Source: Methanopyri archaeon (GTDB lineage Archaea > JAADCQ01 > Methanopyri > Methanopyrales > Methanopyraceae). Taken from it: a DNA stretch of 50,190 bases. Below the pieces are notes generated by a model, which did no database searches, was not told where the DNA came from, and saw nothing but the letters and a program-made list of their open reading frames with translations. Positions within the stretch are counted from its first letter, which is position 1, and each line of letters opens with the position of its first letter. Below, in pieces: positions 10,195 through 16,644 of this stretch. A program made the position numbers and the translations under genes. Where the stretch lies: contig JAADCQ010000014.1 of NCBI GenBank assembly GCA_013154335.1, positions 1-50,190 on the forward strand, in the 5' to 3' direction.

Positions 10195-10626
10195 TTGAAG
10201 ATGTCGGAGCTCTCGTCCAGGATGGAGGATTACCTGGAGGCTATCTACGTGCTGTCGCGGGAGCGTGGGTTCACGACGATATCGGAGTTGAGCGAGTTCC
10301 TAGGGGTTTCGAAACCCACGGTCCTGGAGATGGTGAGGAAGTTGAGCGCGATGGGGTACGTCGTGTACGGAGGGGGTAGGGTGGAGCCTACCGAGGAGGG
10401 TGAGAGGATCGGGCGGAAGGTTTGGGAGAGGCACAGGGAGATAGCCTCGTTCCTCAAGTTCTTGGGGGTGGAGCCCGAGAAGGCGGAGTTGGACGCGTGT
10501 CGGATGGAGCACGCTATGGACGAGGAATCGTACGATAAGATACGTAGGCTGTTCAGGATGTTGAAGGAGAGGTACGGGTCTGGTGGCTGTGTCGATGAGA
10601 TCATCGACGAGATCAGGAGGGGGTGA
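10195..10626 (+). CDS. DtxR/MntR-family metal-dependent transcription regulator
   Basis: 143 aa; TTG 10195 or ATG 10201, after AAGGGG. N-terminal wHTH: MEDYLEAIYVLSRERG, ISELSEFLGVSKPTVLEMVRKL, then a wing GYVVYGGGRVEPTEEG. The metal-binding/dimerisation helix has HREIASFLKFLGVEPEKAELDACRMEH, where Cys, Glu and His are the usual ligands. Lacks the SH3 domain, so closer to MntR. Probably senses Mn, Fe or Ni. The next gene overlaps its stop (GTGA). Confidence 0.88.
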   Translation: MKMSELSSRMEDYLEAIYVLSRERGFTTISELSEFLGVSKPTVLEMVRKLSAMGYVVYGGGRVEPTEEGERIGRKVWERHREIASFLKFLGVEPEKAELDACRMEHAMDEESYDKIRRLFRMLKERYGSGGCVDEIIDEIRRG

Positions 10627-11668: not shown

Positions 11669-11983
11669 TTGGACCCGAGGACGGCGGTGTGCGTGTTCAA
11701 CTCGGTGGCGGTGGTCGCGTTCGGGGCCATAGTGGCCGTGTCCAGGAGGTACTCGGACGTCATGGGGCCCTGGAGGCACGTCGGGATCATGGCCGCCTTG
11801 ACGGCGCTGGCGGGGTCGATCATGGTGGACGTGGCCATGATAGGCTCGGGGTTCTACAGGTTCCCCATCGAGACCGTGATCGCGGGCGCGAGCGTGGGAA
11901 CGGGGTGGGTGTTGGGGTCCCGCCGTCGGACCCGGGGTCCCGGTTCGGGTTCCCCCGGGCCTTCATCCGGCGGGGGGCGTTGA
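11669..11983 (+). CDS. Small membrane protein of unknown function
   Basis: 104 aa from TTG, with GGGG upstream. Three hydrophobic stretches (about residues 7-24, 37-60 and 68-84) suggest a small integral membrane protein. The last 20 residues are Arg/Gly/Ser/Pro only, because this part lies antisense to the vhuU SECIS hairpin (11931-11959). The stop falls 2 bases from the end of vhuU on the other strand. No family recognised; the tail may not be under protein-level selection. Confidence 0.5.
   Translation: MDPRTAVCVFNSVAVVAFGAIVAVSRRYSDVMGPWRHVGIMAALTALAGSIMVDVAMIGSGFYRFPIETVIAGASVGTGWVLGSRRRTRGPGSGSPGPSSGGGR
11931..11959 (-). promoter_or_regulatory. Archaeal SECIS element in the vhuU 3' UTR
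   Basis: Read on the minus strand: lower stem CCCGGGG, internal loop GAA, upper stem CCC, loop GAACC, upper stem GGG, single A, lower stem CCCCGGG. All ten pairs are Watson-Crick. This is exactly the archaeal SECIS consensus (GAA opposite a lone A, then a three-pair GC stem and a small loop). It lies 25 bases after the vhuU stop, in the 3' UTR as is usual in archaea, and directs selenocysteine insertion at UGA. Confidence 0.9.
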
Positions 11984-11984
11984 T

Positions 11985-12119
11985 TCACTCGTCCTCGTCC
12001 CTACGGACGACGCGGACACGCACGTTCTCCAGGGCGTGCGCCGCGCACGACAGTCATATGTCGTAGCTCCTGATCACCATCTCCAGGTAGTTCAGCACGT
12101 CTCTCTTCTCCTCCGCCAA
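11985..12119 (-). CDS. vhuU: Selenoprotein VhuU, C-terminal fragment subunit of the F420-non-reducing [NiFe] hydrogenase
   Basis: A 44-codon frame containing an in-frame TGA at 12056-12054, read as selenocysteine (residue 22), followed by LSCAAH. The context YDI-Sec-LSCAAH is the C-terminal nickel-binding motif (normally DPCxxC...H) that is missing from VhuA. A peptidase should cleave after the His, removing the acidic tail. Start: TTG at 12119 has GGGGGG nine bases upstream; TTG at 12128 would add three residues. Mature length of about 28 aa resembles the tiny VhuU of Methanococcus. Lies 38 bases after vhuA. An ordinary gene caller would split or miss it. Confidence 0.9.
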
Positions 12120-12157
12120 CTCGACCAACCCCCCGTGCAGGGGTTATCCGGGAGGGT

Positions 12158-13462
12158 CTATTCGGCCAAGTCCACGAGGTACTTTTCGAGCTTCTTGGCC
12201 GTGTCCTTCAGGGCGAGTTCTATCGCGGGCACGTTGTGGGTCGTGGCCACTATCAGGTTGGCCTTCTTCACGAGGCCTTCTTCGTCCGTCTCGTAGTGGT
12301 GTATCAGCGTGCCCCTCGGGGCCTCGACTATGCCGACTCCTCTACCCTCCTTGGGTTCGTAGTCTTCCTTGCACTCGTCCTCCTCCGTTATCACGTCGTC
12401 CTCGAGGAGTTCCTTGGCCTCCTCGCACGCGGCCACCAGCTCGATCAGCCTGGCCCAGTTGATGGTCAGCGAGTAGTTGACGCACTCGCCGAACTCGTCC
12501 ACGTACTCCTCGTAGAGTTCCTGAGCCCTGTCCGTCTTCATGGACTCCACCACGTTCAGCCTGGCGCCCGGACCGACCCTGTACACACCGTCCGGGTAGC
12601 CGACCTCCTTGAGGTACGGGTGCTTGACGTAGCAGTGCGGTACGGCCCTCTCCGCGATCACCTGATCGTACTCGTCGGGCTCGAACCTCACGAACTCGTT
12701 ACCCTCGGGGTCGACCACCTTGACCTCACCGTCGTAGAACTCGTGCTTGTCCCCGTCCGTGACCAGACCCATGTGGTAGGTCGGGATGTTACCGAGGGTC
12801 TCCAGCAGGTCCAAGCCCTTGCTCTCGTACTCTTCCAGCGTCCGCTTGATGGCCTCGATGCCGACCTTGGCGCCCTCGTAAGCCATTTCGACCATCTCTT
12901 CCGCCCTGGAGAGGAGTTCGTCACGCTTCTCCGGGTCGACGGGCGCTGACACGCCGCCCGGGATGCCGGTAACCGGGTGTATGGCCTTGCCTCCGGTAGC
13001 CTCGACTATGTCCTGACCGTACTTCCTCAGTTCTATCGCTATCTTGCCGACCTCGGGCTCGTCCTGGATGATCTTGATGACGTTCCTCTGGAGCGGGTCC
13101 GCGTCGGGACCGACCACGTAGTCCGGGGCCGCCAGGAAGTAGAAGTGCAGCGCGTGGCTGTGGATCATGTTACCGATGTGCATGAGCCACCTGATCTTGT
13201 GGCCTCCCTCCGGGGGCTCGACGTCGAAGCAACCGTCGGTCGCCTTGCACGCCGCCAGGTGGTGCGCGGTTTGGCATATACCGCAGATCCTGGAGACGAT
13301 GTAGGGGACTTCCTCGACGGGTCTTCCTTGGACGAACTTCTCGAAACCTCTGACGGCCAGGACCACGAACTTGACGTCTTTCACTTCACCGCCTTCGACC
13401 TCGACCACTACCTCACCGTGTCCCTCGACCCTGGTAAGCGGGTGGATCTTTATCTCGGCCAT
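12158..13462 (-). CDS. vhuA: F420-non-reducing hydrogenase large subunit VhuA/MvhA, lacking its C-terminal motif
   Basis: 434 aa. N-terminal THPLTRVEGHGE-like block (IHPLTRVEGHGE), then RICGIC with C60 and C63, two of the four NiFe ligands, followed by QTAHHLAA. The usual second CxxC near the C-terminus is absent; the protein stops at YLVDLAE, and the missing motif is encoded by vhuU downstream. In the Mvh/Vhu complex, the enzyme oxidises H2 and passes electrons to heterodisulfide reductase. Transcribed after vhuG with a 13-base gap. Confidence 0.93.
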   Translation of the reverse strand: MAEIKIHPLTRVEGHGEVVVEVEGGEVKDVKFVVLAVRGFEKFVQGRPVEEVPYIVSRICGICQTAHHLAACKATDGCFDVEPPEGGHKIRWLMHIGNMIHSHALHFYFLAAPDYVVGPDADPLQRNVIKIIQDEPEVGKIAIELRKYGQDIVEATGGKAIHPVTGIPGGVSAPVDPEKRDELLSRAEEMVEMAYEGAKVGIEAIKRTLEEYESKGLDLLETLGNIPTYHMGLVTDGDKHEFYDGEVKVVDPEGNEFVRFEPDEYDQVIAERAVPHCYVKHPYLKEVGYPDGVYRVGPGARLNVVESMKTDRAQELYEEYVDEFGECVNYSLTINWARLIELVAACEEAKELLEDDVITEEDECKEDYEPKEGRGVGIVEAPRGTLIHHYETDEEGLVKKANLIVATTHNVPAIELALKDTAKKLEKYLVDLAE

Positions 13463-13475
13463 CGGTTACTCCCCC

Positions 13476-14387
13476 TTAGTCTCCCTTGATAGCCCTCCTA
13501 TGTCCCTTCAGCAGGGAGCTGGCCAGCGTGAACATGTAGATCTTCCCGACGAGGTCCGGGATCCCGCTCAGGAGTTCGTCCAGGTCGACGTCGGCCTCGT
13601 ACGATAGGGACGCCAGCGCGTCTAGGTACTCGGCGCCCTGGTCGAGCGCGTTCCTGGTCGGCCCGTTGCATCCCCTGCACGGTAGGCCCCTGGAGGGACA
13701 GGCCGCGCCGCACCCGGAGGACGTGGCGGGTCCGAGACACGGGTAGCCCTGCTCGAGGAGGCACTTCTCGGGGTCGGGCTTGCCCTGTCCCGTCCTGAAC
13801 TTGATCTCCTCGATGGGTTTGTCCTCCTTCTCGCGCGGGCACTCCTCGCACAGGTTCGTCGTGGGTAGTTCGGGCTCCCTGTCCTCGAGGATCGCGGCGA
13901 TGACCTCGGCTATCACCTCGGACTTGGGTGGGCAGCCCGGGATCATGTAGTCGACCTCGATCACGTCTGGCAACGGTCTCACGTACGGGAACAGCTCTGG
14001 CACGTGTTCGGACGGGATGTCGGACTCGTCGTCGTTCGTGGGCGCTTCCTTGTACACGTACTCGAGGAGCTCGTCCCTCGGGTACAGGTTGGCCAGCCCG
14101 TGGACGCCACCGAAGCAGGCGCAGGTACCGACCGCGATGACCACGTCCGCGGCCTCCCTGAGTTCCTTCGCCACCTCCTCGTCTTCCTCGTTCCTGATGC
14201 TACCCTCGATGTAGGCTACATCCACGTGCTCCGGGATCTCTTTGGCATCGAGCAGAACGTAGCAGTACTCTATGTCGATGGCCTCCTCGAGGAGGTCCAC
14301 GAGCTTCTCGTGGAGGTCGAGGAGGGACACGTGACAGCCCACGCAGGACGACAATTGGGCCGTGGCCAACGTTGCCTTCTCGGTCAT
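13476..14387 (-). CDS. vhuG: F420-non-reducing hydrogenase small subunit VhuG/MvhG
   Basis: 303 aa from the ATG of MTEKATLATA; the frame is open further upstream but without similarity. Proximal-cluster ligands: CVGCH (about residue 16), GTCACFGG (about 90), PGCPPK (about 150). The C-terminal part adds further Cys motifs (CEECP, CLLEQGYPCLGP, CPSRGLPCRGC) for medial and distal clusters. Carries electrons from the NiFe site toward VhuD/HdrA. No vhuD is seen in the window. Confidence 0.93.
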   Translation of the reverse strand: MTEKATLATAQLSSCVGCHVSLLDLHEKLVDLLEEAIDIEYCYVLLDAKEIPEHVDVAYIEGSIRNEEDEEVAKELREAADVVIAVGTCACFGGVHGLANLYPRDELLEYVYKEAPTNDDESDIPSEHVPELFPYVRPLPDVIEVDYMIPGCPPKSEVIAEVIAAILEDREPELPTTNLCEECPREKEDKPIEEIKFRTGQGKPDPEKCLLEQGYPCLGPATSSGCGAACPSRGLPCRGCNGPTRNALDQGAEYLDALASLSYEADVDLDELLSGIPDLVGKIYMFTLASSLLKGHRRAIKGD

Positions 14388-14489: not shown

Positions 14490-15095
14490 ATGGCGCATGT
14501 ACACCTTCCGGACGGGGTTATACCGCTAAAGTGGTGCCTCCTCGGGTTCGCGACGTACTCGGTGCCGCTGGCGCTCGGGTTGAAAAGGTTAGTCGAAAGG
14601 CCCTCCACGATCCCGCTGGTCGGGACCCTGGCGGCGGTCTCCTTCGCGGCGATGCAGGTGCCCGTGGTGTGCGCCCACCTGATGTTGACCCCGTTGACCG
14701 GGATCGTCCTGGGTCCCAGACTGTCCGCGGTCTCGGTGTTCGTCGTCGATACGGCGTGCGCGTTGATGGGCCACGGTGGCGTGACGGTGGTCGGGATAAA
14801 CTCGATCCTGAACTGGTCGGAGGCCGCGGGAGGATGGTTACTCTACAGACTCCTCACGGGTGCGGGATTGAAGCCCGGTAGAGCGGCCCTCGTGGCCACC
14901 GGGACGGTGCTCTCGTGCACGGCCTTCGTGCCCCCGTTCGTGATGGCCGTGGCCCTGAACACGTCGCCGTACCCCTTCCTGTTCACGCTCACGCCGTTCT
15001 GGATCTTGACCGCGTGGTTGGAGGCCCTGGTGACGTCGAAGACCGTGGGTGCGCTCGTGAGGATGAACGTCGAGTGGGTGTCACCGGGATCATGA
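14490..15095 (+). CDS. cbiM: ECF-type cobalt/nickel transporter substrate-binding subunit CbiM/NikM
   Basis: 201 aa from ATG. N-terminal metal-binding segment MAHVHLPDGVIP with the conserved His residues, six to seven membrane helices, and conserved GHGGVTVVGIN (about residues 92-102). This is the substrate-capture component. It overlaps cbiQ as ATGA. No separate CbiN is seen between M and Q. Divergent from the [NiFe] hydrogenase genes, which makes nickel the likely substrate, although cobalt for corrinoids is equally possible. Confidence 0.9.
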   Translation: MAHVHLPDGVIPLKWCLLGFATYSVPLALGLKRLVERPSTIPLVGTLAAVSFAAMQVPVVCAHLMLTPLTGIVLGPRLSAVSVFVVDTACALMGHGGVTVVGINSILNWSEAAGGWLLYRLLTGAGLKPGRAALVATGTVLSCTAFVPPFVMAVALNTSPYPFLFTLTPFWILTAWLEALVTSKTVGALVRMNVEWVSPGS

Positions 15096-15817
15096 GGTTG
15101 GAGAGGATCGATTCCCTCGTGGAATGGTCCTTGGAAGCGGATACGCCCGCGCACTCGCTCAACCCGGTGGTGAAGTGGGGGTCCACCCTCGTCACGGTGC
15201 TCGTGGCGTTCGCGGTGCGTAGGATTGAGGTTCTACCAGCTTTGGCCCTCCCTTACGTCGTGTTGGCCGTGTTGTCCAGGCCCCCGAGGGAGGCCCTCCT
15301 CGTGATGGCCGTTCCGCCCTCCGTGTTCCTGGCGGTGACCCTGGCGGCGATGTCCCCTTGGGAGTACCTCAAACACGGTACCGAGGGTCTCAGGCACGTG
15401 GCCCTTTACTCGGTGCGTGGGTTCACGGATCTAACGGCCCTGGTGGTGACGGCGGTCACCACGCCGATAAACGCGACCTGGGAGACCGCGGCCGCGCTCG
15501 CTCCCCCGGGTTTGGCTCAGGCTTTCCTGGTGTTTCACGGCTCGTTGTACGGGGTCATGAGGGCCTTCAGGGGGATACTCGTGGCCCTGACCGTGAGAGG
15601 GAGGCCGAAACCCTCGCTGGAGGCCTTCGGTGCGGCGTTGGCCACGGTGCTGGCCAGGTCCGTGTCGTCGGCGGAGAGGATGGAGGCGGCCATAGAGGTG
15701 AGGGGAGGGGCTAGACCTAGACCGAGGGTGTCGCTCAGGTTCGGCGTCTCGGACGTCGTCTGGACGATCGTGGTGGCGTCCTCCTGCGTCGTCGCCCTGA
15801 CGTTGGGAAGGGGGTGA
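15092..15817 (+). CDS. cbiQ: ECF transporter transmembrane subunit CbiQ
   Basis: 241 aa. The N-terminus (MRLERIDSLVEWS, then HSLNPVVKWG) and the C-terminal coupling motif AIEVRGGARPR correspond to the conserved T-component helix that docks on the ATPase. About five membrane helices. ATG overlaps the cbiM stop and its own stop overlaps cbiO, so the three are made together. Confidence 0.88.
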   Translation: MRLERIDSLVEWSLEADTPAHSLNPVVKWGSTLVTVLVAFAVRRIEVLPALALPYVVLAVLSRPPREALLVMAVPPSVFLAVTLAAMSPWEYLKHGTEGLRHVALYSVRGFTDLTALVVTAVTTPINATWETAAALAPPGLAQAFLVFHGSLYGVMRAFRGILVALTVRGRPKPSLEAFGAALATVLARSVSSAERMEAAIEVRGGARPRPRVSLRFGVSDVVWTIVVASSCVVALTLGRG

Positions 15818-16644
15818 GCGGGCTGGAACCGGCCGTGGAGATAAACTGCGTCACGCACGAGTACCCGGGCGGTGTCTGCGCGGTCTGTGGGTTGTCGTTG
15901 AGGATCGAAAGGGGCGAGACCGTGGTCATCTTGGGTCCCAACGGCAGCGGTAAGACGACCCTGTTGCACCACATCTTGGGGTTGCTGAAGCCGAAGGAGG
16001 GCGTGATCAGGGTACTCGGGTACGAGATGCCGGAGGAGGCGGAGAAGGCCAGGGAGGCCATGGGGGTCGTGCTGCAGGACGTCGACGATCAACTGATCAT
16101 GCCGACGGTCCTCGAAGACGTGGCGTTCGGTCTCGTGGCTAGGGGGGTCCCGAGGAAGGAGGCGGAGCGGAGGGCCAGGGAGGTTTTGCGGGAACTGGGG
16201 TTGGAGGATCTCGAGGATAGGCCGCCGCAGTTCCTCAGCGGTGGTCAGAAGAGGATGGTGGCGTTGGCGGGCGCCGTGGTCATCGATCCGGAGTTGTTGA
16301 TCCTGGACGAGCCGACGACGGGGTTGGACCACCTGGCCGCGGAGAGGTTCGTCGAGGTGCTCTCGGGGTTGAAGGAGGATAGGCCCAACCTCACGGTGAT
16401 CTTGACGACGTTCGACGTGGATGTAGCGGCCACCCTAGCGGATAGGGTCGTGTTGATAAGGGATGGAACCGTGTCGGTGGAGGGTCCTCCGGACGAGATC
16501 CTCACCGACCCCGGTTTACTCAGGGAGCACGGGATAAAGCCCCCGAAGCACGTCGAGTTGCTCCACGAACTCGGTATCGACAGTCCCCCGTTGGACGTCG
16601 AAGAAGCCGTCGAGATGTTGAGGTCGATGGGGTTGCACGGATGA
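15814..16644 (+). CDS. cbiO: ECF transporter ATPase CbiO, with Phe in place of the switch His
   Basis: 276 aa from GTG, overlapping cbiQ. Walker A GPNGSGKTT (41-49), Q-loop VVLQDVDDQ, signature LSGGQK (about 144), Walker B LLILDEPT and D-loop TTGLD are all intact. The H-loop, normally THD, reads TTFDVD with Phe at residue 200 (TTC at 16411). The C-terminal extension (about 225-276) is usual for CbiO. Powers metal uptake by CbiMQ. Loss of the switch His would normally slow hydrolysis. Confidence 0.9.
   Translation: MSGLEPAVEINCVTHEYPGGVCAVCGLSLRIERGETVVILGPNGSGKTTLLHHILGLLKPKEGVIRVLGYEMPEEAEKAREAMGVVLQDVDDQLIMPTVLEDVAFGLVARGVPRKEAERRAREVLRELGLEDLEDRPPQFLSGGQKRMVALAGAVVIDPELLILDEPTTGLDHLAAERFVEVLSGLKEDRPNLTVILTTFDVDVAATLADRVVLIRDGTVSVEGPPDEILTDPGLLREHGIKPPKHVELLHELGIDSPPLDVEEAVEMLRSMGLHG

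Follow-up and report, generated by a model that had tools for sequence, protein, structure and literature searches.

A separate vhuU gene with its own SECIS element appears to complete the hydrogenase large subunit VhuA in a further Methanopyrus species

The window, the whole stretch of 50,190 nucleotides that we analysed, carries vhuG, vhuA, vhuU and a SECIS element on its minus strand, in that order. The hydrogenase small-subunit gene vhuG (13476–14387) matches the NCBIfam VhuG model with an E value of 6.1e-98. Its longest open reading frame (ORF) opens at 14504 and the alignment begins at residue 40; the start is probably the ATG at 14387. The large-subunit gene vhuA (12158–13462) encodes 434 amino acids that match NCBIfam VhuA (E 1.1e-166) and PDB 9sfi_g (E 3.4e-144). 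Its product terminates in ...KYLVDLAE* (...KKLEKYLVDLAE*) with no CxxC there, and the translated ORF (13462–12158, minus strand) thus bears out the claim of an earlier note on this DNA that VhuA ends without its C-terminal metal-binding motif. The vhuU gene follows after a spacing of 38 nt.

Read on the minus strand, positions 11985–12128 encode LVELAEEKRDVLNYLEMVIRSYDI-U-LSCAAHALENVRVRVVRRDEDE-stop, and translation of the same interval on the plus strand gives no VhuU. The earlier note had recognized an in-frame YDI-TGA-LSCAAH in this interval without naming a strand; the motif and its frame stand, the strand is minus, and the start is probably at 12119 rather than at 12128. The frame from the TTG at 12128, itself a possible start, comprises 47 sense codons and a stop. 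We prefer the second TTG, at 12119, because it aligns with the ATG GCC GAG start of vhuU in all four relatives and because a G-rich stretch (GGGGGG, 12129–12134), a likely ribosome binding site, lies at the right distance, 9 nt ahead; the relatives also have G-rich stretches just 5′ of their ATG. The probable coding sequence (11985–12119) therefore specifies a VhuU of 44 amino acids, MAEEKRDVLNYLEMVIRSYDI-U-LSCAAH-ALENVRVRVVRRDEDE, with one in-frame TGA and a TGA stop at 11987–11985. The in-frame TGA (12054–12056) is the predicted selenocysteine (Sec) codon, UGA, and specifies the first residue of U-L-S-C. From the start at 12119, the Sec-bearing part up to the conserved His comes to 28 residues, in agreement with the Sec peptide of roughly 28 residues that had been predicted, and it is followed by a 16-residue C-terminal tail (11988–12035) whose position we assign by analogy with NiFe hydrogenases.

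We searched the VhuU protein against 41 genomes with stop codons read through, among them the genome studied (G000) and the four other Methanopyrus genomes compared (G001–G004, of which G002 is a single contig of 1,694,969 bases). VhuU with one TGA was found in each of the other four genomes of the genus, with E values of 7.5e-16 or better, and alignment places the UGA at the same codon in all five. The orthologues, including that of G002, are 76–81% identical within the genus and share the same SECIS. The LSCAAH that follows the UGA is invariant across the five genomes, and the C-terminal tail varies between species. In each, the UGA is the first position of UxxCxxH, and here the ORF is a separate, short one directly 3′ of a vhuA that lacks the CxxC. 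Relative to the other Methanopyrus proteins, the gene here differs in its TTG rather than ATG start, a slightly longer tail and a changed SECIS apical loop. VhuU matches the NCBIfam model NF041786 over profile positions 2–44 of 45 (E 1.1e-17) with 63.6 bits, below the curated cut-off of 70, and VhuA scores 554.6 bits against a cut-off of 800; such scores might be expected for a divergent genus in which U is read as C. The existence of this model means that the statement that normal gene calling would lose vhuU is only partly true.

The 70 bases after the vhuU stop fold into a long hairpin (−40.6 kcal/mol, z −2.2). Within it, in the 3′ untranslated region of vhuU, lies the SECIS (11922–11971), with a 9-bp basal stem, the GAA (11952–11950) opposite a single A (11938) and a G+C apical stem. 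Archaeal SECIS elements are defined by a GAA opposite a single A with flanking G+C pairs (PMC11881835, PMC11227280), and the element here has that loop, G+C clamps on both sides and a position in the untranslated region. The GAA is 104 nt downstream of the Sec codon, within the 80–1,300 nt given for the distance from Sec codon to SECIS (PMC2933860). All five vhuU SECIS elements share this GAA_A without change. Below it is an AUGA_GA motif, as reported for the Methanopyrus frhA SECIS (PMC11227280). We had considered the basal GAUGAA of the SECIS as a kink-turn, for which the GAUGAG of the relatives would break the rule in PMC11881835; this assignment was rejected, as the true GAA_A is higher in the stem and the lower GAUGAA corresponds instead to the AUGA_GA of Methanopyrus (PMC11227280). 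A strict scan for the SECIS pattern, covering both strands of the 50-kb window, gave a single match, where 300 random sequences of matched dinucleotide composition had 0.003 on average. A covariance model trained on the SECIS of vhuD, fruA and selD only, with vhuU excluded (13 pairs, both partners changed in five of them, and 100% of cells paired), matches the SECIS behind vhuU in all five genomes with E < 1e-8, and in the window with 50.3 bits and an E value of 3.1e-10. As the ORF with its TGA is kept in five genomes and the SECIS pattern is found once against 0.003 expected, we conclude from the sequences that the vhuU ORF is not a chance one. On the plus strand, a convergent ORF (11669–11983) runs antisense through the SECIS with its 3′ end; in the four relatives its TAG stop lies inside the SECIS, and here, with this TAG lost, the ORF extends to 11983.

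The genome also encodes a complete MvhA of the Cys type, preceded by MvhD (contig C53, 14517–15942 and 13166–13534), a likely selenium-free counterpart of Vhu. This MvhA is a complete single-chain Cys protein that ends in ...LNRLEMVIRAYDPCLSCASH (DPCLSCASH and a tail). Like MvhA of PDB 5odc, it has the same motif at the same protein position as VhuU, but on one chain, with Cys rather than Sec and no need of a SECIS. Its presence would allow the UGA of vhuU to be a true stop and the ORF a decayed remnant in a cell that relies on the Cys hydrogenase. We consider this very unlikely, given that the codons past the UGA stay in frame with an invariant LSCAAH, that the SECIS has been kept in all five genomes, and that VhuA is intact and 84–85% identical to its relatives. 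We found no free CxxC partner for VhuA in the genome, the other Mvh-type large subunit, that on C53, having its own C terminus; the earlier note had looked to a complete NiFe C-terminal motif elsewhere, paired with this VhuA, as the finding that would speak against it.

VhuU is an established Sec subunit in Methanococcus (PMC2933860, PMC11097638) and, according to PMC5424206, Methanopyrus has it too; the family is counted among those that all or almost all archaea using Sec possess (PMC9312934, PMC13188914). The earlier note likewise gives the split and the Sec as known in Methanococcus and reported for M. kandleri. As in Methanococcus, VhuU here is a separate, tiny subunit encoded after VhuA, with UxxCxxH, a C-terminal tail and, as predicted here, a UGA-encoded Sec. 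The two differ in gene arrangement: vhuGAU here is apart from vhuD, which is on contig C1, whereas in Methanococcus hdrA-vhuDGAUB is one operon (PMC11097638). The motif reads YDI-U here and YDP-U in a homologue from outside Methanopyrus. In the split F420-non-reducing hydrogenase of PDB 9sfi and 9t1s, a large subunit without the C-terminal motif is accompanied by a 27-residue chain with SCAAH. The 418-residue large subunit of 9sfi is the best match to VhuA. The small chain, although diverged in sequence from VhuU here, aligns with VLNYLEMVIRSYDIULSCAAH and ends one residue past the His; its shortness fits removal of a tail. That two chains are seen in the solved homologue also bears on whether VhuA and VhuU might be made as a single chain, through frameshifting or read-through of the vhuA stop. 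In favour of this, only 38 nt separate the genes and the Cys homologue is a single polypeptide; but the frames differ (vhuA stops at 12160–12158 and vhuU starts at 12119 or 12128), the spacer varies between species and each species has a proper vhuU start, and we regard a single chain as extremely improbable.

The genome encodes a tRNA-Sec with anticodon UCA, SelB and SepSecS above their cut-offs, and SelD, whose gene has its own in-frame TGA. A PSTK-like gene is a clear match (E 1e-42) yet falls below the curated cut-off. By its gene content, then, and with that reservation on PSTK, the organism has the set expected of a Sec-decoding organism (tRNA-Sec, SelB, SepSecS, SelD and PSTK). A hydrogenase maturation protease, TIGR00072, is above cut-off on contig C46. 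Decoding of the UGA mainly as cysteine or another residue would be compatible with the vhuU sequence alone, but with tRNA-Sec (UCA), SelB, SepSecS and the SECIS all present there is hardly any chance of it. The earlier note had named the absence of SelB, tRNA-Sec and SPS genes, beside a complete partner for VhuA, as what would overturn its interpretation; the genes are all present and no such partner was found, and its interpretation is therefore supported.

Taken as a whole, vhuU almost certainly encodes the C-terminal, Sec-containing part of Vhu, the F420-non-reducing [NiFeSe] hydrogenase. The split, the conserved UGA, the SECIS and the machinery genes are seen in the sequences; for this Methanopyrus species we infer Sec insertion, complex formation, cleavage and a role in H2 activation, as follows. 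The NiFe site would have its N-terminal half on VhuA, which ends early, and VhuU would be translated separately from its own start. The UGA would be decoded as Sec by SelB and tRNA-Sec, directed by the SECIS about 100 nt downstream, and the U-x-x-C of VhuU would provide the two nickel ligands that VhuA lacks. Cleavage after His-28 by a maturation protease would presumably follow, and the 16-residue tail is, by analogy, probably removed at this stage, leaving a VhuU peptide of about 28 residues in the complex with VhuA and VhuG. The VhuU described here is a new orthologue of a known selenoprotein family, and as such of low surprise. It would add a further Methanopyrus species in which the catalytic selenium of a main methanogenic hydrogenase is encoded on a 44-codon gene of its own, and it provides the correct strand, start and SECIS for annotation.

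Across the genome studied, the SECIS covariance model matches fruA, selD, vhuD, vhuU and fwuB, as well as one site on contig C49 (741–692; 44.7 bits, E 2e-7). Directly 5′ of this site is a candidate gene (C49, 1131–733, minus strand) with two in-frame TGAs, ...VNGRVVESSV-TGA-G-TGA-NGLAYFDVRGV...GKPVPL-TGA, whose predicted product combines an Ig-like domain with a hydrophobic stretch at the N terminus. Immediately after the stop comes a perfectly paired 10-bp stem with GAA_A (fold z −5.9). G002 (C1, 1183612–1184004, minus strand) and G001 (C1, 1397752–1398081, plus strand) hold orthologues that are 45 and 44% identical to it, the one in G001 with its N-terminal part out of frame. Both have TGA-GGG-TGA at the same place and end at the same VPL, after which a hairpin resembling a SECIS carries GAA_A in G002; in G001 it has AAA_A, a weaker but active SECIS form (PMC11881835). 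The frame is conserved past both TGAs, with an alignment score of 105, where shuffled sequences averaged −20 (sd 9.6), and the neighbouring genes in the genome studied differ from those in G001 and G002. The gene was not found in G003 or G004 and is known from three Methanopyrus genomes, a small sample. Pfam yields only weak matches to Big_1 and CarboxypepD_reg. The homologues that lack TGA occur as Ig-like repeats in large archaeal proteins, probably surface proteins, and have T, N, S or D at both positions and no Cys, which would explain why screens based on Cys-to-Sec homology missed the family. None of the 11 archaeal selenoprotein families counted in PMC13188914 corresponds to this protein, and we found no description of it in the literature searched, although older papers could hold one. 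On these sequence grounds we think it likely that an unreported family of small, membrane-anchored, Ig-like selenoproteins with two Sec residues (U-G-U) at a turn exists in Methanopyrus, M. kandleri AV19 apparently included. If this is true, a list of selenoproteins regarded as complete for a well-studied archaeon may be one family short, given that the SECIS model of the genus picks up the known selenoprotein genes plus one that belongs to no known selenoprotein family.

VhuD of the genome studied (C1, 15373–15741) keeps one Sec and has Cys at the second site (VAGCKKGEC), where G001 and G002 have TGA; VhuD of G003 has two TGAs. The four relatives have a Sec FdhA with the SECIS upstream of the UGA, on its 5′ side, and the genome studied shows only an FdhA-like protein with Cys (contig C90) and no SECIS there. 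We rejected a Sec-to-Cys swap in this case, since the protein is 56–58% identical to those of the four relatives, which share 80–91% among themselves, and it is thus a different gene copy rather than a swapped orthologue; the genome being 94.7% complete, a Sec fdhA copy may be missing from the assembly. G001 carries two fwdB-type genes (C1, 155331–156599 and 553203–554471) with equal scores and one TGA each, possibly through gene conversion of a Cys copy, and G002 has one such gene with a TGA and one without. Near vhuG in the window, genes for a CbiM-type transporter (14490–16644, plus strand) are divergent from it, placing a cobalt/nickel uptake cluster beside the genes of a nickel enzyme, and a DtxR/MntR-type regulator is encoded at 10195–10626.
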